This document shows, one piece after another, positions 12,825 to 24,019 of a stretch of 64,000 nt of DNA. A program made the translations under genes and the position numbers. The stretch comes from Pseudomonadota bacterium (GTDB lineage: Bacteria > Myxococcota_A > UBA796 > GCA-2862545), in the NCBI GenBank assembly GCA_947475315.1, contig CANJMY010000007.1:1-64000 (forward strand), read 5' to 3'. The notes under the pieces were generated by a model. The model saw nothing but the letters and a program-made list of their open reading frames with translations. It was not told the origin of the DNA and searched no databases. Position 1 is the first letter of the stretch. Each line of letters starts with the position of its first letter.

Positions 12825-13829
12825 TCACAGCCGCGACAGGCCGACGCGTCGACGCGCCTGCAGGCAGGCGTCGGCGCCCACCTCAAAGTCGCGGCACGCG
12901 TGCGGACGGATGGCGTAGATCGCGCAGCGCCAGGGCGGCCCACCGGGGTTCAGGCCCACGCAGCGACCGCCCGGGCGGTCCAGGTAGCGGAACTCACCAT
13001 CGGCGGAGATCAGGTCGGGCCGGACGAGGTTGACCGCGTCCTCCGGCTCGACCGACACGGCGTGGAAGCCCTCGCGGCAGCACGCGCCGCACGCCGCGCA
13101 GTCGCTGTGGTCGAGCTTGCGCTCCCAGCGCACGCACGCGGGCGAGGCCGGCGCGACGGCACGATCGTGGGCGCGGCAGTGGGTCGTCTGCGAGGCGCTC
13201 CACGCGCAGGTGTCGCAGGTGCCGCCGCTCGGGTGGGCCGCGACGCCAACCGCGGTCCGGGGTCGGGTGAGGGACCACAGCGAGCCGGGCTCGGCCGCGC
13301 CGCGCACCAGGTCCGCCATGTCGGCTGTGGCGCGGAGCGCGTCGAGCAGCGGGCCGGACCACTTGCCGCGCACCGCCTCGGGCCACGCGGCGCGCGCGAG
13401 GGGGATGGCGGGGTCGTCGCCGGCGCCGAGCGCGTCGGGCGGCAGCGCGTCCCAGTAGGGGCGCCAGTTCGTCGTCGGCGCGAGCAGGTCCCGCAGGCCG
13501 TAGAGGTCGGTGAGCGCGGCCTGCAGGCGGTGGCACGCGTGCTCCTGCACGGCGGCGCGCGCGTCCTCCGTGTTGTCCAGGCCCCAGTCGACCTCGCGGA
13601 GCATGCTCGGCCCTTGTACGAGCGCGTGCACGATCTCGTGCAGGATCATCTGCGCCACGCTGTCGTCGGGATCGAAGTCGGACGGCGGGCACAGGGTCAA
13701 CGTGTCACGGCCATCCCACGACGCGTACACGTCCGGGGCGCGGGCGACCTTCCAGCCCAGGCGCGCGGCGCAGCGCAGCCAGATCGCGTCGAGCGGGTCG
13801 CCATACGTGCCAGGGATGGTGCGTGTCAT
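12825..13829 (-). CDS. HExxH metallopeptidase-like domain fused to a YkgJ-type Cys cluster
   Basis: 334 residues. The N-terminal third has HEIVH (His64-Glu65, His68), the zinc-binding signature of gluzincin/minigluzincin proteases, with a following EHACH at 95-100 that could supply a third ligand. The C-terminal third begins with a CDTC pair, then has the YkgJ-like cluster DCAACGACC, a later WRCAIYAIRPHACRDF segment and a final Cys; YkgJ/UPF0153 proteins are thought to bind zinc or an Fe-S cluster. The middle (about 100-220) is helical with no recognised motif. No signal peptide is seen, so it is probably cytoplasmic. Substrate unknown. Confidence 0.75.
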   Translation of the reverse strand: MTRTIPGTYGDPLDAIWLRCAARLGWKVARAPDVYASWDGRDTLTLCPPSDFDPDDSVAQMILHEIVHALVQGPSMLREVDWGLDNTEDARAAVQEHACHRLQAALTDLYGLRDLLAPTTNWRPYWDALPPDALGAGDDPAIPLARAAWPEAVRGKWSGPLLDALRATADMADLVRGAAEPGSLWSLTRPRTAVGVAAHPSGGTCDTCAWSASQTTHCRAHDRAVAPASPACVRWERKLDHSDCAACGACCREGFHAVSVEPEDAVNLVRPDLISADGEFRYLDRPGGRCVGLNPGGPPWRCAIYAIRPHACRDFEVGADACLQARRRVGLSRL

Positions 13830-13939
13830 CCGCGGCGCCTATCTCGTGGTGTCACCTGCGCGTAAGTGCAGCATGTCGGACGCATGGGCCATGACATGAG
13901 TGTCCGGGACGCAAACCGCGACGGCCCCGACGGTCGGAC

Positions 13940-14036
13940 GGCTCCAGGGTGCCCGGAAGGGACGCTCCTGAGGACCACGCGCGCTGCTCTCCCCTTGTGT
14001 GGCGCGCAGGATGGACTCGGGACGCACCCTGGAGCC
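13940..14036 (+). repeat. 13-bp inverted repeat upstream of the kinase operon
   Basis: GGCTCCAGGGTGC (13940-13952) and its exact complement GCACCCTGGAGCC (14024-14036) are separated by 71 bases and end 63 bases before the kinase ATG. They could form a long-range stem in a 5' leader RNA or be paired protein sites. The rest of the gene-free stretch 13830-14099 between the divergent genes holds no reading frame I can support. Confidence 0.5.
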
Positions 14037-14099
14037 TTCGACCACCCCTCCGTGAATGCGCGCGCCGGACCGGCCCGTTAGCGGACGACGGGGGCTCGC

Positions 14100-15686
14100 A
14101 TGGACGGCGTGGACGCCAAGGCCTCGCTGGGCCCGCACGACGCTCGCTACCGCCTGGACTACCCGCTCGGTGAGGGCGGCATGGCGGTGGTCTGGCGGGG
14201 CTACGACTCCGTCAAACAGAAGCTCGTCGCCATCAAGGTGGTGCGGGGCGGGGGACGGGCGACCGCGGTGCGGGTCAAGCGCTTGACCGCCGAGCTCCGC
14301 GCGTTGTCCAGGCTGGAGTCCGCGCGGCACCCCAACCTGGTGCAGGTCTACGCGTTCCACGAGTACGAGGATCCAGAGACCAACGAACAACGCGCCTTCA
14401 TCGTCATGGAGTACGTGGAGGGCGGCAACGTCGAGCAGCAGATGCACGCGTTGGGGCGTCTCCCGCCGCGGCGGGCGGTGCGTTGGGTGGTGCAGGTGCT
14501 CTCGGCGTTGGGGGCCGCGCATCGGGTCAACGTCGTCCATCGAGACATCAAGCCGTCGAACATCCTGCTGGACCGCGAGGGCAACGCGGTGCTCGCGGAC
14601 TTTGGCATCGCCATGTTCTCCGACGAGGTCGATCGCTTCACGCGCACGGGCGTGATGATGGGGTCGGTCGCCTACGCTCCGCCGGAGCAGCGCCTGTCGG
14701 CCAAGGACGCGCGGCCGACGTCCGATCTGTACGCGACAGGCGCCGCGCTCTACCAGATGCTGACCGGCGAGCGCCCCGATCACCTCTTCGCCGAGCCGAT
14801 CGAGCATGCGCGCTGGCAGCTCGTGGACGAGCCGCTGCGGTCGGTGCTCTTCAAGGCGATGAAGAAGGACCCGGACGAGCGCTACCAGACCGCCGATGCC
14901 ATGGCCGACGCGCTGGAGGCTTGCGTCGCGTCCCTGCCACCGGACGAGGTCGCCGACGCGCTCACCCGGTTTCCTGGGCGCAGCGCCGACAGCCGAGACG
15001 GCGCGTTCCCGACGTTCGGACAGACCAAGACGGCAGACGGGCTCCCTGAGTTTGATGACGACGACGGCGCTCGCGCGCTCACCCCGGCTCGGGCGGCTTT
15101 GGCGGTGGGCAGCGTGGTTCTCGTCGCGCTCGCCGTGTGGCTCACGAATCCGGTCGGGACGCCGCCGTCGGCGACGGCGCCTGTGGCGGCGGTCGGGTCG
15201 GCGACGTTGGCGGCTCCTCCGGTCGCGCCGTCCCCGGGTCCGCCGACCGGGCCGGAGGTGGCAGCCCCGGCCACGTCGGCCGCGCCTGCGTCGCCTGAAG
15301 CTGCCTCCGCCGTCTCGCCGGGCGCGCCGCGCGCGAGGACCAAACCCGTCGCCCCAGCCCCCGTCTCGCCCGAGATGGCGCCGATCGCCGGCAAGTGGCG
15401 CCGCAACGGTGGGTCGGTTGGGCCCTCGACGTTCGTGGTCGGAGGCGAACCGTCGGCGCTGCGCGGAACGTTCGCCTACAGCCGCGCGAACAGGGTGGTG
15501 GGCGAGGGGACGCTCTCCAAGGGCGCCTGGGATCCCGACGCACGGCAGGGCGCGGTTGAATTTGAGTACGCGGAGACGACCGTACGCCTCGACCTCAAGC
15601 TCTTGCAGGACGGTACGCTGGCGGTGACGTGTTGCGGAGGTGGCGCTGTGAACATGGGAGACATCCAGTACCGCCGGGCGGAGTGA
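14100..15686 (+). CDS. Hanks-type Ser/Thr protein kinase, membrane-anchored
   Basis: 528 residues. A full PknB-like kinase domain (about 15-280) shows the Gly loop GEGGMAVV, Lys46 in VAIKVV, HRDIKPSN at 147-154 and DFG at 167-169, with APPEQ in the activation segment, so it should be active. A Pro/Ala-rich part contains one transmembrane helix at about 330-352. The outside portion ends with a beta-rich domain of about 110 residues (from GKWRRNGG) that may act as a sensor. It is the first gene of a five-gene run and lies 50 bases before an FHA-domain gene, the expected reader of its phosphothreonine. A 13-bp inverted repeat precedes it. Confidence 0.92.
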   Translation: MDGVDAKASLGPHDARYRLDYPLGEGGMAVVWRGYDSVKQKLVAIKVVRGGGRATAVRVKRLTAELRALSRLESARHPNLVQVYAFHEYEDPETNEQRAFIVMEYVEGGNVEQQMHALGRLPPRRAVRWVVQVLSALGAAHRVNVVHRDIKPSNILLDREGNAVLADFGIAMFSDEVDRFTRTGVMMGSVAYAPPEQRLSAKDARPTSDLYATGAALYQMLTGERPDHLFAEPIEHARWQLVDEPLRSVLFKAMKKDPDERYQTADAMADALEACVASLPPDEVADALTRFPGRSADSRDGAFPTFGQTKTADGLPEFDDDDGARALTPARAALAVGSVVLVALAVWLTNPVGTPPSATAPVAAVGSATLAAPPVAPSPGPPTGPEVAAPATSAAPASPEAASAVSPGAPRARTKPVAPAPVSPEMAPIAGKWRRNGGSVGPSTFVVGGEPSALRGTFAYSRANRVVGEGTLSKGAWDPDARQGAVEFEYAETTVRLDLKLLQDGTLAVTCCGGGAVNMGDIQYRRAE

Positions 15687-15736
15687 TCCCCCGCGTCAGC
15701 ATCCGTGGTAGACCAGGGCTGGGGATGGGGGTGTGA

Positions 15737-16699
15737 GTGAGCGGTGGGATGTGGCTGCACATGGTGCGCAACGGCGTGGAACGCCCGGCGATCGCCGTGC
15801 TTGGACGCCCACGAACGCTCGGGCGAGCGCGTGACTGCGATCACGTGATCGCCGATCCGAGCGTGTCCTCCCACCACGCCTCGGTCTGGTTCGAGAACGG
15901 CTGCGCTTGGATTCGGGACCTCGGCAGCCGCAACGGCACTTGGATCGACCGAGTACGCGTGTCGGCACCGGCCGTGCTGAACGACGGCGCCCGCGTTCGC
16001 CTCGGGTCCACCATCGAGTTCGTGGCCCGCGCGGCCGCGCCGGTTGTGCCGACCCGGCAGGACGCCGTCGCCGTCGAGGACGTGGAGACGATGGTCCGCC
16101 ACCCGTTCTTCGCGGACCGCTTCTTCCTGGGCGACAGCGACCACGCTGACCTTCGGGTGGCCGACGCGGGCGGCGGCGTCGCCCTCTTCCTCGACCAAGA
16201 CGGCGACGTCTGGCGGTCCACCGTCGACGACGACGGCCCGCTCGAGCTGGGAGAGGTCTTCACGTGCGGCGGTCGACGCTTCCGCGTGGTGGCGGACGAT
16301 GGGTCCGTGGGCCTTGGCGCCACGATCGGCGACGCGCGCTTACCGTTCCGGCTCACCCTGACGCTGGACGGCGTGGCGGGCGCCGAAGCGATCATCGACG
16401 ACCCACAGACCGGCACGCGCCATGTCGTCGACGCCGAGAACCGAGCTGTTCTGCTCTACGCGCTCGCCAAGCGCGCGGTGGACGCGCGCAGCACGGGCAA
16501 CGACGATGACGCGTGGTGCTCCGACGAGGACATCACGCGGGACGTCTGGGGACGGCGCTCGTCGACGGACGCGAACAGCCTGCACGTGCTGGTGCACCGG
16601 CTGCGCAAAGAGCTGAAAGAGGCCGGTTTCGACCCCTGGTTCATCGAGAAGCGTCGCAAGGCCATTCGACTCGCCCTCCCCGACATCGTGATCAAGTGA
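15737..16699 (+). CDS. FHA domain-winged helix transcription regulator
   Basis: 320 residues. The N-terminal FHA domain (about 15-105) has the phosphothreonine-reading residues: GR at 29-30, SSHH at 44-47 and SRNGT at 64-68. A second, FHA-like beta region may follow (about 120-215). The C-terminus (about 240-315) looks like an OmpR/PhoB-type winged helix (DITRDVWG...LHVLVHRLRKELKE...FIEKRRKAIRL). EmbR of mycobacteria joins the same two modules in the opposite order and is controlled by a Ser/Thr kinase, so this protein is probably a transcription factor switched by the kinase encoded just upstream. The GTG start follows a G-rich stretch. Confidence 0.8.
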   Translation: MSGGMWLHMVRNGVERPAIAVLGRPRTLGRARDCDHVIADPSVSSHHASVWFENGCAWIRDLGSRNGTWIDRVRVSAPAVLNDGARVRLGSTIEFVARAAAPVVPTRQDAVAVEDVETMVRHPFFADRFFLGDSDHADLRVADAGGGVALFLDQDGDVWRSTVDDDGPLELGEVFTCGGRRFRVVADDGSVGLGATIGDARLPFRLTLTLDGVAGAEAIIDDPQTGTRHVVDAENRAVLLYALAKRAVDARSTGNDDDAWCSDEDITRDVWGRRSSTDANSLHVLVHRLRKELKEAGFDPWFIEKRRKAIRLALPDIVIK

Positions 16700-16706
16700 G
16701 TCGGTC

Positions 16707-17768
16707 ATGCTGACCGTATTGTGGGTCGCGACGGCGTTGGCGGGCTCCTCCCCGCTGGTGGAGGGGCACGTCGTCGCGCTCTCCACCTTCTCCGACGAGC
16801 AAGGCGCGCCCGGCGTCGGCGGTGGCGCGGCGTTCGGCGTGAACGCCTTTGGCCCGCTGTGGATGGAGGCGGTGCTGGAGGGCGCGTGGACGCCCGCGAG
16901 CGGTCCCCGTGTGGCGATGTGGCCGCGGCTGCGCGTGTTCGCCACGCCGAGGGACGAGTCGACTCGCGCGGCGCTCTCCTTCGCGGCCGGCGCCGGCATC
17001 CAGGCGCTGCCCACGCCTGCGCGCGGGCAGTTCGAGCTGTCCTCTGCGCTTGACGTTCGCGTCGCCCACAACGTGGCGCTCCGGTTCGAGGGCGGCTGGC
17101 TGCCGACGACCACCACGCTCGGCGCGACGCGCTTCGCCCTGGGCGTCGTGTGGACACGTCGGCGGGACTCTGCCCCCGTCGTGGAGGAGAAGTCCGTCCA
17201 GCCGTGGCTGCCGTTCCCGGAGTGCCGGTTCGTCGGTCCCGCGGAGGCGCGGGCCTACTTTGGGGACGACGTGGCCGAGACACGCGCGCCCGATGGCGCT
17301 GCCCCCGCCGCGATCGTCGCGCCGGGCGGCAAGCAAGACACGCCGCCGCCCCCGCCCGAAGGCGCCGTCTGGATCACGCCGGGGTCCGGGCAGATCACCT
17401 CCGACGAGCTGCGCTTCGCGGGCCACACGGTCTGGGCGCGGCGCCTGCCGCCCGCCTACTCGGTCGTGTTCGCGCTGGCCGATGCGTCCCTGTCCGACGC
17501 CGAGGCCGCGCAGATCGCCGCGCTCGCGAGCGCGCCTGGGGTCGTCTGGCGCGTGCACGGCTCGTACTCGACCGAGGGCGACCTGGACCTGAACCGATCC
17601 TTGGGGCTCGCGCGCGCCAACGCCGTGCGCGACGTGCTGATCCACGCGGGCTTGCCCGCCAGCCGCATCCTGTCGACCGACGTGGTTGAGCCCGACCCAG
17701 GCGCCTCGCTGGAGGCGCAGCGCAGCGCCACCGTCGTCGCTGAGCTTCCGCCCGAGGTGTCGCCATGA
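16707..17768 (+). CDS. OmpA-family outer-membrane protein
   Basis: 353 residues. A short signal peptide (MLTVLWVATALA) leads into a beta-strand-rich region (about 15-150) resembling a small barrel, a Pro-rich linker near 210-220, and a C-terminal OmpA-like domain (about 235-350). That domain has the typical helix with NRSLGLARANAVRDVLIHAG and would bind peptidoglycan. It probably tethers the outer membrane to the wall. The gene starts 7 bases after the FHA regulator stop, and its own stop overlaps the next start (ATGA), so it belongs to the kinase operon. Confidence 0.75.
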   Translation: MLTVLWVATALAGSSPLVEGHVVALSTFSDEQGAPGVGGGAAFGVNAFGPLWMEAVLEGAWTPASGPRVAMWPRLRVFATPRDESTRAALSFAAGAGIQALPTPARGQFELSSALDVRVAHNVALRFEGGWLPTTTTLGATRFALGVVWTRRRDSAPVVEEKSVQPWLPFPECRFVGPAEARAYFGDDVAETRAPDGAAPAAIVAPGGKQDTPPPPPEGAVWITPGSGQITSDELRFAGHTVWARRLPPAYSVVFALADASLSDAEAAQIAALASAPGVVWRVHGSYSTEGDLDLNRSLGLARANAVRDVLIHAGLPASRILSTDVVEPDPGASLEAQRSATVVAELPPEVSP

Positions 17769-18886
17769 TCGCCTTGTGGCTGGCTCTGTCGGTCGCGCAC
17801 GCCTCGGGCACGCACGTGGTGTTGGCCGGGGAGACCGCGGAGTCGATCGCGCGCATGGTCGGCGATCCCAAGCTCGCCGACGCGATCCGCGCCGAGAACG
17901 ACATCGCGCCGGGCGCGCAGCCGGTGGTGGGCGCCGTGCTCCGACTGCCGGAGTCCGTGCCCGGGTCCGGCTGCGAGCCCTCGCGCGTGCTGGACCACAA
18001 CGGCCCGCTCTTCCTGCGCACCACGCGCCGCGAAGCGGTGACCGTGACCCACGCCGAAGGCACGCTCAGCCAGGAGTCTCGGGACGTCATCGTTCGCGCT
18101 CCGGTTGAGGACCACACGGTGCTGAACCTCGCGGACGAGATCTGCACGGGCGCGGCGGGCGTCGACGGCGACTCCGTGGACGGCTTTGCGCGGGTGGAGC
18201 TCTCCGTGCCGCCGGACGCCGGCGCGCGCGACGTGATCACGCTCCTTCCCGGTACCTGCGTGATCATCACCGCGGTGGACCGGGTTCGGGACGCGCGCAG
18301 CTCGCTCGTCGACCTGACCCAGGGCGCGATCGTCGTCGAGCACCAGCCCGTCCCCGGCGACGTGATCGTGCGCACCGGCGGCACCGATCCCGCGGGCAGC
18401 GCGGTCACCGTCGGGCACCGCGGTGGCTTTCGCGTCGCGGTCGAGCCGACGTCCGCCCGCACTGAGGCGATCGGCGCCGAGGTCAGCACCACCGCCCAGG
18501 GCCACGAGGTCGTGCTCCCCGAGGGCTACGGAGGACGCACCACCTTCGGTGAGGCGCCCAGCGACCCGCACCCGCTCCCGACCACGCCCAAGCTCCTCTC
18601 GCCTGCAGACCGCGCGCCGCTCCTGGTGCCGGACTTCCGCGCGCAGCCGGCGCTGCGGGCGGGCAGCTACATCCTGCGCATCGGGCTGGCCGAGACGCCA
18701 CAGCTTCCGGTGTTCGCGACTGAGCTGCTCACGCCATCCTTCGCGCCGCTCTACCCGGACGAGACGCTCGTCCTGCCGTCCGGTCGAGGCGCGTGGACCT
18801 GGCAGATGTCGGCGGTTGATGCGCTCGGGTTCGAGGGCAAGCCGTCGCCCGGACGCACCTTCTTCGCGCCGGTGGTGACGCCATGA
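17765..18886 (+). CDS. LysM and FecR-like domain periplasmic protein
   Basis: 373 residues. Signal peptide MIALWLALSVAHAS, then a LysM-like module (about 16-60, THVVLAGETAESIARM...PVVGAVLRLP) expected to bind glycan chains. The central part (about 65-270) is beta-rich, with a stretch resembling FecR-type domains (GGFRVAVEPTSARTEAIG, then EVSTTAQGHEVVLPEGYG). The C-terminal third is Pro-rich with another beta domain. LysM-FecR proteins are usually wall-associated sensors or scaffolds. Start and stop overlap the neighbouring genes by 4 bases (ATGA) on both sides, indicating tight translational coupling with the OmpA-like and barrel-like proteins. Confidence 0.7.
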   Translation: MIALWLALSVAHASGTHVVLAGETAESIARMVGDPKLADAIRAENDIAPGAQPVVGAVLRLPESVPGSGCEPSRVLDHNGPLFLRTTRREAVTVTHAEGTLSQESRDVIVRAPVEDHTVLNLADEICTGAAGVDGDSVDGFARVELSVPPDAGARDVITLLPGTCVIITAVDRVRDARSSLVDLTQGAIVVEHQPVPGDVIVRTGGTDPAGSAVTVGHRGGFRVAVEPTSARTEAIGAEVSTTAQGHEVVLPEGYGGRTTFGEAPSDPHPLPTTPKLLSPADRAPLLVPDFRAQPALRAGSYILRIGLAETPQLPVFATELLTPSFAPLYPDETLVLPSGRGAWTWQMSAVDALGFEGKPSPGRTFFAPVVTP

Positions 18887-19731
18887 TCGCGTGGGTGCTC
18901 GCGTTGGCGGTGGCGTTCGCGCAGGACGCGGCGCCCGCGGTCTCGTCGGATGGCCTCGTTCCGGCGGTGTTCTCGGAGCGCGGCGTCGTCACCTCGGACA
19001 CCAACACCCAGCGGCTTGGCGTGGCGACCGTGCACGTCGGCTGGGCGCACGCGCCGTTCGTGCTCAAGGATGAACACGACAAGGCCGCGGTCATCCGCGA
19101 GGATGGCGTGGTGTCGGTGTCGGGCGGCGTGGGCTTGGGTCCGCTGCGCCTCGGCGCGACCTTCGCCGGCTACCTGGCCACCAGCGATCGGTTCCAGGGC
19201 GTGCGGACCGCGCCGGGCGACCTCGGCGTCGACCTGCAATTCGTGCCGTTCTCCGCGTCATCCAAGCGGCCGGGCTTTGGCCTGTTGGTCCACGCCAGCG
19301 CGCCGCTTGGCGGGCACCGGCTCGGCCTCGGCTGGGACGGCGCCGCCTGGGAGGCGCGCGCGTTGATGGACGGCGTCGCGGGCCCCGTCTGGATCGGCGC
19401 GGAGGCCGGCGTGCGAGACGCTCCGGCCGTCCAGGTGGGCGACGTCGCGCTCGACACCTCCTTCGTGTGGCGTCAGGCGACGGGCGTCCGCTTCACCCGG
19501 CACGGCGGCATGACCCTCGAATGGCAGGGGGCGGTGGCGCTGCTGCACGCCGTCCGGCCCGAGACCACCCCCGCCGAGGCCATCCTGTCGGGCTGGATCG
19601 ACGCGGATCAAGGCCTCTCGGTTCGCGTGGGCGCCAGCGCGGGCCTGACCCCAGGCTGGACCGCGCCGTCCGTGCGCGCCTTCGCCGAGATCCACGGAGA
19701 GTTTGCGCGCAAGGTGCGCTCCCCGAAGTGA
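18883..19731 (+). CDS. Beta-barrel-like envelope protein, unknown
   Basis: 282 residues. Signal peptide MIAWVLALAVAFA (cut before QDAAP) and then many alternating strands with Gly turns (for example VSVSGGVGLGPLRLGATFAGYL and SVRVGASAGLTPG), as in outer-membrane barrels. No family motif is recognised. It is the last gene of the kinase operon, coupled to the LysM/FecR-like gene through an ATGA overlap, so it may form an envelope complex with the two preceding products. Confidence 0.65.
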   Translation: MIAWVLALAVAFAQDAAPAVSSDGLVPAVFSERGVVTSDTNTQRLGVATVHVGWAHAPFVLKDEHDKAAVIREDGVVSVSGGVGLGPLRLGATFAGYLATSDRFQGVRTAPGDLGVDLQFVPFSASSKRPGFGLLVHASAPLGGHRLGLGWDGAAWEARALMDGVAGPVWIGAEAGVRDAPAVQVGDVALDTSFVWRQATGVRFTRHGGMTLEWQGAVALLHAVRPETTPAEAILSGWIDADQGLSVRVGASAGLTPGWTAPSVRAFAEIHGEFARKVRSPK

Positions 19732-22204: not shown

Positions 22205-24019
22205 TCAGGCGTCCTGGTCGTACCGCGTTTCACGTCTGCGAAGCACGGCGACGGCCTCCACCTGAACCAGGGCGCCCTCGGCGCTGTTGGAGATCTCCGC
22301 GGCGTTCGCCTCGTCCGTGTCGATGTGCATCTCCAGCCTGGAGGCCTCGGACACGCGGATCGTCACGTCGCCAAAGATCAGGCTTCGCGGGCCGGAGGAC
22401 ACCTCCACCTCCACCATGTCCTTGTGCTTCACGCCGTACGCGGCGGCGTCCGTGGGGGTCATGTGGATGTGGCGAGCGGCGCAGATCACGCCCTCCGGGA
22501 TGGTGAGCGAGCCTGCGGGCCCTCGGAGCGTCACGCCTGGGCTGTTTGCGACGTCGCCGGAGATGCGAACGGGCGCGTCCAGGCCGAGGAAGAACTCGTC
22601 GGTGCGGCTGACCTCGACCTGACAGGCCGAGCGCTCTGGCCCCAGCACCCGGACCCCTTCGATCGTCCGCTTCGGCCCCACGATGTCGAGCACCTCGCCG
22701 CTGGCGTACTGCCCCGGCTGGGAGAGCGGCTTGAGCGGCGTGAGCGTGTGATCTAGGCCGAAAAGAACGTCGATCGCGGCACGCGTGAGGTGGATGTGGC
22801 GCGCGCTCACGGCGATGGGGATGGCGCCGGGCGTGCCGACGGAGTCGGCGCCGACCATCAGCGCTGCCGTGTCGCGGGCGATCGCGCGGGCCTCGTCGGT
22901 GTGGACCACCAGCAGCTGCACGCGGCTCGCGGGGTCGTGGATCGCGAACACGGGCTGCAGCTGGGAGACGCGCGCGTCGCGGTTGGCGTCGTCGTCGAGG
23001 ACGGCGCCCAGGAAGCCAAGGCGCTGCAGCGCCCGCTGACGGACCAGCGCGCTGTGCTCGCCAATGCCGGCGGTGAACGCGATCACGTCGACGCCGCCCA
23101 TCAGCGCTGCGTAAGCGCCGATGTACTTGCGGAGCCGGTGGCAGAACACGTGGATCGCCAGGCGCGCGGACTCGTCTCCCGCCGACGCCCGCTCCTCCAG
23201 GTCACGGAAATCGCCGCTTCCCCCGGCCAAGCCCGCGAGGCCGCCGCGCTTGTTCACGAGGTCGTCGAGCCCATCGAGGTCCAAGCCCTCGGCGCGCGCC
23301 ACCGCGATCAACGCGCCCGGGTCGATGTCCCCGGTGCGGGTTCGCATCACCAGCCCCTCGGCGGGCGTCATCCCGGACGAGATCTCGACGCTTCGGCCGT
23401 TCTCCACGGCGCACACGCTGCATCCGCTCCCCAAGTGGATCGTGAGGATCCGCAGCTCACGAATCTCGGCTTTGAGGTGTCGGGCAACCTCGGCCGCGAC
23501 CCAGCCGTGGCTCGTGCCATGAAAGCCGTAGCGTCGTACGCCGTGCGCTTCGGCGAGCTCACGCGGCAGCGCGTAGGCGCGCGCCCGCGCGGGCAGGGTA
23601 GCGTGGAAGGCGGTGTCGAAGACCGCGACGTGCGTCACCGACGGGAACTCCGTCCGGGCCGCCCGAACCAGGGCCAACGCCGCCGGGTTGTGGAGCGGCG
23701 CGAGCGGGATCAGCGCCTCGATCGCACCCTCCACTGAGTCGTCGATGCGGGTGGGCGCGGTGAAGCGCGACCCGCCATGGACCACGCGGTGCCCCACGGC
23801 GTCGATCGCGCCGCTGCGGAGGAGGTGGGGGAGCGCGGCGTGCAGCGCCTCGGTCATCGAGCCCACTTGCTGGTGTAAGGGCTCAGCGCCGTCCACGGTG
23901 AGCATGGAGTGCTCGCCGATCCGGTCGATCTCCACGGAGCTGTCTCGAATGCCCGTCGCCGGGTCGAGGACGTCCGCCTTGAGGCTGCTACTTCCGGCGT
24001 TGAGGACAAGGACGCGCAT
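22205..24019 (-). CDS. Acetate kinase fused to PduL-type phosphotransacylase
   Basis: 604 residues in one open frame. Residues 1 to about 385 are a complete acetate/propionate kinase: NAGSSSLK, GHRVVHGG, VFDTAFH, YGFHGTSHG, the GDIDPG motif and TAGIGEH, close to the usual 400 residues. From about 397 a full PduL domain follows, with the metal ligands HIH at 408-410, Glu469, HIH at 517-519 and His565 (EMHIDTDEANAA). Together the halves could convert acyl-CoA + Pi to acyl-phosphate and then to carboxylate + ATP, or the reverse, possibly handing over the acyl-phosphate directly. These are normally two proteins. ATG start with GGAGAG upstream. The GH31 gene follows 13 bases downstream. Confidence 0.92.
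   Translation of the reverse strand: MRVLVLNAGSSSLKADVLDPATGIRDSSVEIDRIGEHSMLTVDGAEPLHQQVGSMTEALHAALPHLLRSGAIDAVGHRVVHGGSRFTAPTRIDDSVEGAIEALIPLAPLHNPAALALVRAARTEFPSVTHVAVFDTAFHATLPARARAYALPRELAEAHGVRRYGFHGTSHGWVAAEVARHLKAEIRELRILTIHLGSGCSVCAVENGRSVEISSGMTPAEGLVMRTRTGDIDPGALIAVARAEGLDLDGLDDLVNKRGGLAGLAGGSGDFRDLEERASAGDESARLAIHVFCHRLRKYIGAYAALMGGVDVIAFTAGIGEHSALVRQRALQRLGFLGAVLDDDANRDARVSQLQPVFAIHDPASRVQLLVVHTDEARAIARDTAALMVGADSVGTPGAIPIAVSARHIHLTRAAIDVLFGLDHTLTPLKPLSQPGQYASGEVLDIVGPKRTIEGVRVLGPERSACQVEVSRTDEFFLGLDAPVRISGDVANSPGVTLRGPAGSLTIPEGVICAARHIHMTPTDAAAYGVKHKDMVEVEVSSGPRSLIFGDVTIRVSEASRLEMHIDTDEANAAEISNSAEGALVQVEAVAVLRRRETRYDQDA

Follow-up and report, generated by a model that had tools for sequence, protein, structure and literature searches.

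A recurrent Ser/Thr kinase, FHA-winged-helix and OmpA/LysM-FecR gene set as a candidate trans-envelope signalling operon

To our knowledge, most bacterial Ser/Thr kinases have neither a known input nor a dedicated output. The locus described here, part of a 64,000-nucleotide stretch of DNA (the window), raises the question of whether a Hanks-type kinase gene, followed in tandem by genes for an FHA-bearing transcription factor and for envelope proteins, forms a signalling unit in which both could be recognized. An operon of this kind, recurring in many genomes, offers a candidate input (an envelope antenna) and a candidate output (the FHA transcription factor) for a Ser/Thr kinase.

Organization of the locus

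Five open reading frames occupy positions 14100-19731, all on the + strand, which confirms the gene set described in a sequence-only reading of this DNA. The kinase and FHA genes are separated by 50 bp and the FHA and OmpA genes by 7 bp, while the OmpA/FecR and FecR/barrel junctions are 4-bp ATGA overlaps, present as that reading had described them. The predicted features are as follows.

13830..14099, no strand assigned: upstream intergenic region, presumed promoter
14100..15686, +: Hanks-type Ser/Thr kinase (Pfam Pkinase, 6e-39)
15078..15143, +: kinase transmembrane helix, predicted at about residues 327-348 (hydropathy peaks at residue 330, with a value of 2.13)
15354..15680, +: C-terminal domain of the kinase (about residues 419-527), a candidate sensor in the periplasm (profile A6)
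15737..16699, +: FHA-winged-helix (FHA-wHTH) regulator, GTG start, ATG at 15749 possible (Pfam FHA 6e-19, Trans_reg_C 3.6e-8)
15815..16006, +: FHA domain (Pfam, residues 27-90), with phosphothreonine-binding residues G29, R30, S44, H47, N66 and G67
16055..16306, +: middle region of the regulator (profile-profile Prob 32 and pairwise E 4.8e-4 against the first FHA domain)
16514..16657, +: OmpR/PhoB-type winged helix (PF00486; SaeR 4u88, E 0.0016 with profile A4)
16707..17768, +: OmpA-like protein (Pfam OmpA 0.0012, under the curated cut-off)
17765..18886, +: LysM/FecR-type protein, presumably periplasmic (Pfam LysM 0.28, under the cut-off)
18883..19731, +: barrel-like protein, presumably of the outer membrane, an optional member (no Pfam family)

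No sigma-70-like match was found in the region upstream of the kinase gene (13830-14099), and a search for a promoter motif or conserved operator upstream of the operon recovered none. An inverted repeat in this region (13937-13952/14024-14039) was considered as an operator and rejected, being missing from the sister genome. That the gene set is unique, or an assembly artefact, was ruled out by this same sister genome, which carries the same five genes and flanks; since the gene content also recurs in six families of the order, the set is more than a chance arrangement.

Recurrence of the gene set in related genomes

The occurrence of the set was analyzed in 58 related genomes, with genes called genome by genome and strong FecR loci defined by E<1e-70. 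Twenty-four strong LysM/FecR loci were recovered from 22 of the 58 genomes, and 23 of these loci were examined, the other (L128) having no usable call and being left out of the operon counts. OmpA lies directly upstream of FecR in all 23, with an overlap of 1 or 4 bp in 20, and a barrel homologue is found 3' of FecR in 12. The kinase gene is inside the operon in 20 of the 23; a contig edge cuts two more loci, and one has only a 98-aa unassigned ORF upstream. This recurrence gives good support to a conserved envelope-signalling unit. The sequence-only reading had taken conservation of gene order as its check: gene content does recur across relatives, but the exact five-gene order occurs in the window and its sister genome only, that is, within the genus. 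Other loci show the orders FHA>kinase>OmpA>FecR, kinase>OmpA>FecR>FHA and kinase>FHA>kinase>OmpA>FecR, or a divergent FHA gene.

The association of the FHA regulator with this unit is looser. Three kinase-OmpA-FecR loci whose flanks are complete (L127, L130 and L135) lack the regulator, so that the description of the unit as self-contained was too strong; five more loci, cut at contig edges, give no call for it. Also, FHA-wHTH genes are often found away from OmpA/FecR: in a tree of 54 family members, 16 are envelope-adjacent, 15 have only a kinase nearby and 23 have neither. These observations would suit two independent modules sharing a neighbourhood by chance or co-expression, one being kinase>OmpA>FecR(>barrel), with a kinase that has other targets, and the other a general FHA-wHTH protein served by several kinases. 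However, the FHA gene is in or beside the operon at 15 of the 23 examined FecR loci, in six families and in several arrangements, and five FHA-paired kinases devoid of OmpA/FecR neighbours keep the operon-type C-terminal domain, and we regard independent modules as unlikely. The scatter of envelope-adjacent copies in the FHA tree (11 changes versus a shuffled mean of 13.9) indicates that the FHA-envelope linkage has often been gained or lost.

Genome-wide counts, from which five loci without a usable call (L052, L057, L065, L080 and L095) were left out for FHA, point to the same association. FecR is present in 22 of the 40 genomes with the FHA-wHTH family (E<=1e-25) versus 0 of the 18 without it (p 2.3e-5, uncorrected for kinship). 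Of 56 FHA-wHTH loci, 31 have a kinase of the operon type no more than two genes away; such kinases account for 35 of 204 near genes versus 2 of 276 far genes (Fisher p 4e-12).

The kinase and the FHA-winged-helix regulator

All residues expected of an active Hanks kinase (catalytic Lys, Glu, HRD, Asn and DFG) are present in the kinase, and K46, E65, H147-R148-D149, K151, N154 and D167-F168-G169 are invariant in the 15 operon kinases compared, all of which also contain the hydrophobic segment. In the protein, the catalytic region is followed by a single predicted transmembrane segment and a C-terminal beta domain, presumably periplasmic. In contrast to PASTA kinases (PknB/Stk1), whose extracellular part is built of PASTA repeats, no such repeats were found in the operon kinase, with NF033483 covering residues 14-283 only (229 bits versus a cut-off of 450). 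The profile of the C-terminal domain (A6) matches 18 of 18 OmpA-adjacent kinases, all of them in the profile by construction; it also matches FHA-paired kinases from outside the profile that have no adjoining OmpA/FecR (L042, L054, L055, L061 and L072). The domain is missing from some other FHA-adjoining kinases, e.g. L059_6, L062_8, L096_7 and L092_3. A streptavidin/lipocalin-like barrel is no more than a possible assignment for it, given a weak profile match to streptavidin (E 0.0015), a low-confidence single-sequence model (pLDDT 58) and a best Foldseek E of 0.23.

The six phosphothreonine-binding residues of the FHA domain are invariant in 15 relatives, and the top PDB match of the domain is EmbR (2fez, 1.1e-17). 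As in the EmbR/PknH system of Mycobacterium tuberculosis, a membrane Ser/Thr kinase is accompanied by an FHA-bearing, OmpR-like transcription factor, but the window operon has LysM-FecR and OmpA partners in addition. The regulator had been read as EmbR-like modules in reverse order, of which the FHA part stands: EmbR has an N-terminal winged helix, a BTAD and a C-terminal FHA domain, whereas the window regulator has an N-terminal FHA domain and a C-terminal winged helix of the OmpR/PhoB type, with no Pfam match to BTAD at E up to 1. Domain order and the lack of a detected BTAD rule it out as an EmbR orthologue. Pfam gives FHA and no Response_reg (REC) domain for this protein; a single-sequence structure model of it was discarded (pLDDT 36).

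FHA domains are readers and not classical phospho-acceptors. In addition, the profile similarity of the regulator's middle region to its first FHA domain is suggestive, and only that, of an internal duplication that left a second, degenerate FHA-like domain. Both points would agree with the FHA protein being a scaffold or repressor that tethers its promoter to the membrane kinase, and not a regulator activated by phosphorylation. Against this, EmbR, the closest solved relative of the FHA domain, is reported to bind its promoters better once phosphorylated by PknH (PMC6213207), and we consider a scaffold or repressor very improbable.

The envelope proteins and a BiofilmReg-like arrangement

By inspection, the OmpA-like protein has a barrel-like N-terminal region, followed by an OmpA domain at the C-terminus (all 13 family members match PF00691 at E up to 0.1). 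An hhalign comparison (Prob 1-3) does not demonstrate that the barrel-like protein duplicates the N-terminal region of OmpA. In A. baumannii OmpA, the DAP-binding pair is Asp271/Arg286 (PMC5974059). Both residues are retained in 15 of 15 comparison proteins, whereas the peptidoglycan (DAP)-binding Asp is lost in all 19 operon copies (Ser in 17, Ala in 2) and the Arg is retained in all of them; the window protein has Ser, with the Arg kept. With the canonical Asp missing, wall contact through the OmpA domain is doubtful. Two further OmpA-domain proteins of the same genome (L163 and L164) also have Ser at this position, which softens the view of the loss as special to operon copies.

The window LysM/FecR protein itself has no Pfam match to FecR, and its labels derive from its relatives: of 13 family members, 7 match LysM and 5 match FecR at E up to 0.1, and LysM is absent from the member in G003. 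FecR-annotated proteins of Paraburkholderia and Eleftheria match the family profile, that of Paraburkholderia at positions 10-322 (E 7e-26), and in both the gene order is response regulator>FecR>CHASE2. The likeness to FecI-FecR-FecA iron-citrate signalling is limited to the FecR-type domain, by name and distant homology, and a FecIR-type iron system was ruled out, as neither an ECF sigma factor nor a TonB receptor is among the five genes.

In the Burkholderiales, a homologous LysM-FecR is flanked by a winged-helix response regulator on one side and a CHASE2 histidine kinase on the other. This is the BiofilmReg operon, described in PMC5192318 as a CreB-like response regulator, a LysM-FecR protein, a CHASE2 histidine kinase and a DUF4136 protein; an insertion in the regulator gene, reported to block transcription of the whole four-gene set, left Burkholderia contaminans unable to form biofilm, and OmpA goes unmentioned in the text of that paper. 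Both operons combine a Trans_reg_C winged-helix output (PF00486 in the window and Paraburkholderia regulators alike), a LysM-FecR protein and a membrane kinase, and homology between their FecR proteins extends along almost the full profile. In contrast, the membrane kinase of the window operon is of the Hanks Ser/Thr type and not a CHASE2 histidine kinase, its regulator carries FHA where BiofilmReg has a receiver domain, genes for OmpA and a barrel are added, and DUF4136 is missing; no CHASE2 match was found in the window's genome assembly (85% complete). The earlier statement that no described system has this exact set holds in the literature searched, although its LysM-FecR protein belongs to the known BiofilmReg theme.

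Taken as a whole, the locus is probably a trans-envelope signalling operon, in which a BiofilmReg-like envelope antenna is served by a Ser/Thr-kinase/FHA (pThr-FHA) relay that replaces the His-Asp relay. The OmpA-like and LysM/FecR proteins, with the optional barrel, would be its outer and periplasmic half, relaying cell-wall or outer-membrane status to the single-pass kinase, which would contribute its own periplasmic beta domain. An envelope change would trigger kinase autophosphorylation, probably on Thr181, an invariant residue of the activation loop, or on juxtamembrane sites rich in Thr; the resulting phosphothreonine would be the docking site for the regulator's FHA domain, and the regulator, once captured or phosphorylated, would bind its putative target promoters differently. 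The Ser/Thr-kinase variant would be the derived one.

The kinase's own C-terminal domain, together with the FHA-kinase pairs that occur without OmpA/FecR, could also mean that this domain senses alone and that OmpA, FecR and the barrel are structural outputs reinforcing the envelope. We find this somewhat unlikely, as OmpA/FecR adjoins a transducer gene across different transducer types, as LysM-FecR does in BiofilmReg. Outside the order, where 11 of 27 FecR-bearing genomes were covered, the pair adjoins a CHASE2-cyclase, a CHASE2-HisKA with an STPK-REC, or a Cache-HAMP-cyclase with an STPK; at 5 of the 11 distant FecR loci (L136, L137, L139, L140 and L145) no transducer was recognised. The CHASE2-cyclase loci of the same phylum (L142, L143, L144 and L150) likewise have OmpA/barrel and FecR genes coupled beside a membrane signalling enzyme, but their output is a cyclase and not kinase/FHA, and their OmpA keeps the DAP-binding Asp that the window protein lacks.

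It is conceivable, and proposed here tentatively, that OmpA/LysM-FecR is a widespread antenna with exchangeable transducers (histidine kinase, cyclase or Ser/Thr kinase), rewired in this order to a dedicated phosphothreonine two-component system made of a sensor Ser/Thr kinase and an FHA-wHTH protein, with FHA at the place of the BiofilmReg receiver. The OmpA domain would have given up the DAP-binding Asp, signalling and not anchoring. For LysM-FecR proteins, the operon suggests a function beyond the label 'FecR domain-containing protein', and the loci where homologous envelope proteins adjoin a cyclase or a histidine kinase serve as a natural, built-in comparison. In the FecR tree, from which the fragmentary L091 was omitted, the proteins of the order form a group of 22 (support 100/99), with those of the CHASE2-cyclase loci outside it, and one genome (G048) harbors both the CHASE2-cyclase and the kinase version.

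The five genes and their products

All five genes named by the sequence-only reading are present at the coordinates it reported, and the ATGA overlaps it claimed for the OmpA-like, LysM/FecR and barrel-like genes are seen in the window sequence:

14100-15686, + strand: Ser/Thr kinase
15737-16699, + strand: FHA-wHTH protein
16707-17768, + strand: OmpA-like protein
17765-18886, + strand: LysM/FecR protein
18883-19731, + strand: barrel-like protein

The kinase (528 aa) combines its kinase domain with a single hydrophobic stretch at about residues 327-348 and, at the C terminus, a conserved domain of ~110 aa. Across an alignment of 15 operon kinases, the catalytic residues and, in the activation segment, Arg179 and Thr181 do not vary. 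In the FHA-wHTH protein, Gly29, Arg30, Ser44, His47, Asn66 and Gly67, which we take to be the phosphothreonine-reading residues of the FHA domain, are kept in 15/15 sequences. The parts, the coupling of the genes and the intact active residues are directly visible in the sequence.

In the OmpA, FecR and barrel proteins (window genes at 16707, 17765 and 18883, with relatives in the family profiles A1, A2 and A5), putative signal peptides are very short, and the first 12 residues hold no Lys or Arg in 30/30 sequences; K/R are also missing from the first 10 residues in 8/18 window genes with hydrophobic N-termini.

Recurrence and gene order among relatives

The sister genome, of the same genus, carries the same five genes and the same flanks. 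The genomes compared are drafts in which genes outside the window were called anew, and counts are uncorrected for kinship. With the FHA protein as query, some match occurs in 57/58 related genomes, many being weak and spanning the FHA domain alone; counted as present at E<=1e-25, the FHA-wHTH family occurs in 40/58. Strong FecR profile matches (E<1e-70) occur in 22/58 genomes, at 24 loci, and these are 22 of the 40 FHA-wHTH genomes and 0 of the other 18 (Fisher p 2.3e-5, uncorrected for kinship).

Sequence was retrieved for each of the 24 FecR loci, and gene calls were usable around 23 (L128 was left out). OmpA lies immediately upstream of FecR in 23/23, with a 1- or 4-bp overlap in 20. A kinase lies inside the operon in 20/23, fragmented at L091 and partial at L134; a contig edge cuts L129 and L132, and L131 has only one 98-aa ORF without assignment upstream of OmpA/FecR. 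The FHA gene is within or beside the operon in 15/23 loci, another five reach contig edges, and it is absent from three with full flanks (L127, L130, L135). A barrel homologue follows FecR in 12/23. At loci L040 and L066, FHA, kinase and OmpA are in place up to the contig end.

The five-gene set, sought in relatives, recurs in content, but the order found in the window is seen only within the genus. Arrangements were as follows: ARRANGEMENTS; FHA>kinase>OmpA>FecR is common. FHA lies downstream of FecR in genomes G022, G031 and G037, and is divergent from kinase>OmpA>FecR in G011 and G020. In genomes G003 and G015 the order is kinase>FHA>kinase>OmpA, with the FHA-wHTH gene between two related kinases (loci L038 and L040). 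That the window order could come from this two-kinase form after loss of the second kinase is speculation, because in the kinase tree the window kinase groups with neither kinase of that form.

Kinase-FHA pairing and the OmpA domain

At 31/56 loci an operon-type kinase is no more than two genes away from the FHA-wHTH gene, such kinases making up 35/204 near genes versus 2/276 far genes (p 4e-12). A profile of the C-terminal domain, built from operon kinases, also matches five FHA-paired kinases without OmpA/FecR alongside (L042, L054, L055, L061 and L072; E 8.7e-14 to 1.5e-16); it has no match in 18/46 kinases compared, including some adjoining FHA genes. Juxtamembrane segments have twice the Thr fraction of kinase domains (0.095 vs 0.046), which is weak support because the periplasmic linker is likewise Thr-rich (0.073).

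Other recurrent gene sets adjoin FHA-wHTH genes at L063, L073, L074 and L075, comprising either a ~750-aa kinase with genes of ~528 and ~270 aa, or two kinases with a 265-aa gene; they suggest further FHA-wHTH pathways.

According to PMC5974059, an Asp of the OmpA domain binds diaminopimelate. This Asp is replaced in 19/19 operon OmpA proteins (Ser in 17, Ala in 2), all of which retain the partner Arg, whereas both residues are kept in 15/15 comparison proteins, of which 11 come from the other FecR loci and 4 are large OmpA proteins found in the order. The loss is not unique to the operon, since among other OmpA-domain proteins of the window genome L163 and L164 also have Ser, L158, L159 and L160 having the canonical Asp. 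Judged from sequence, the replacement makes wall anchoring through the operon OmpA domain doubtful; LysM, where present, may take over this part.

Wider families and a candidate pathway

FecR relatives (E<=1e-10) occur in 44/235 genomes of the phylum, 17 inside the order and 27 outside, and loci were fetched from 11 of the latter. An OmpA/barrel homologue lies upstream of FecR, directly or a few genes off, in 11/11. The neighbours include a CHASE2-cyclase (L142, L143, L144) and a Cache-HAMP-cyclase with a Ser/Thr kinase (L141, L146). At L138 (4591-8471), one operon encodes a CHASE2 histidine kinase, a Ser/Thr kinase with receiver domain, an Hpt protein, OmpA and FecR, possibly a His-Asp and Ser/Thr hybrid. 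Five of the 11 have no recognised transducer. In genome G048 the kinase/FHA set coexists with an OmpA>FecR>CHASE2-cyclase locus (L150). Among these genomes the FHA-wHTH family (E<=1e-25) does not extend beyond the class: it was found in 29/235, 27 of them in the order.

The Burkholderiales operon BiofilmReg (PMC5192318) comprises a response regulator, LysM-FecR, a CHASE2 histidine kinase and sometimes DUF4136. Its gene order was confirmed on plasmids of Paraburkholderia largidicola and Eleftheria terrae, the Paraburkholderia proteins having the domains REC+Trans_reg_C, LysM+FecR and CHASE2+HisKA+HATPase. The FecR proteins of both resemble the window family (Paraburkholderia, profile positions 10-322, E 7e-26; Eleftheria, 1.6e-15). 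A tree of 36 FecR proteins has one branch (100/99) that separates the 22 encoded in kinase operons of the order from every CHASE2- or cyclase-linked protein. The open-access library searched yielded no publication joining CHASE2, FecR and OmpA, and among the papers listed no title or abstract opening describing the FHA/FecR/LysM/OmpA/kinase/winged-helix set.

The most economical reading is that OmpA and LysM-FecR, with the optional barrel, would form an envelope antenna acting on the receptor kinase, which would then signal to the FHA-wHTH factor. Signal, phosphorylation, binding and targets would follow by analogy with BiofilmReg and with the mycobacterial regulator/kinase pair EmbR/PknH, the latter as described in PMC6213207.

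Two other window genes were also noted, both on the - strand. In the product of the gene upstream of the operon (12825-13829), a HEIVH motif resembling that of zinc proteases precedes a tail rich in cysteine. The single ORF at 22205-24019 resembles acetate kinase at its start and has end motifs like those of a PduL-type phosphotransacylase; it would be a fused acetate-forming enzyme.
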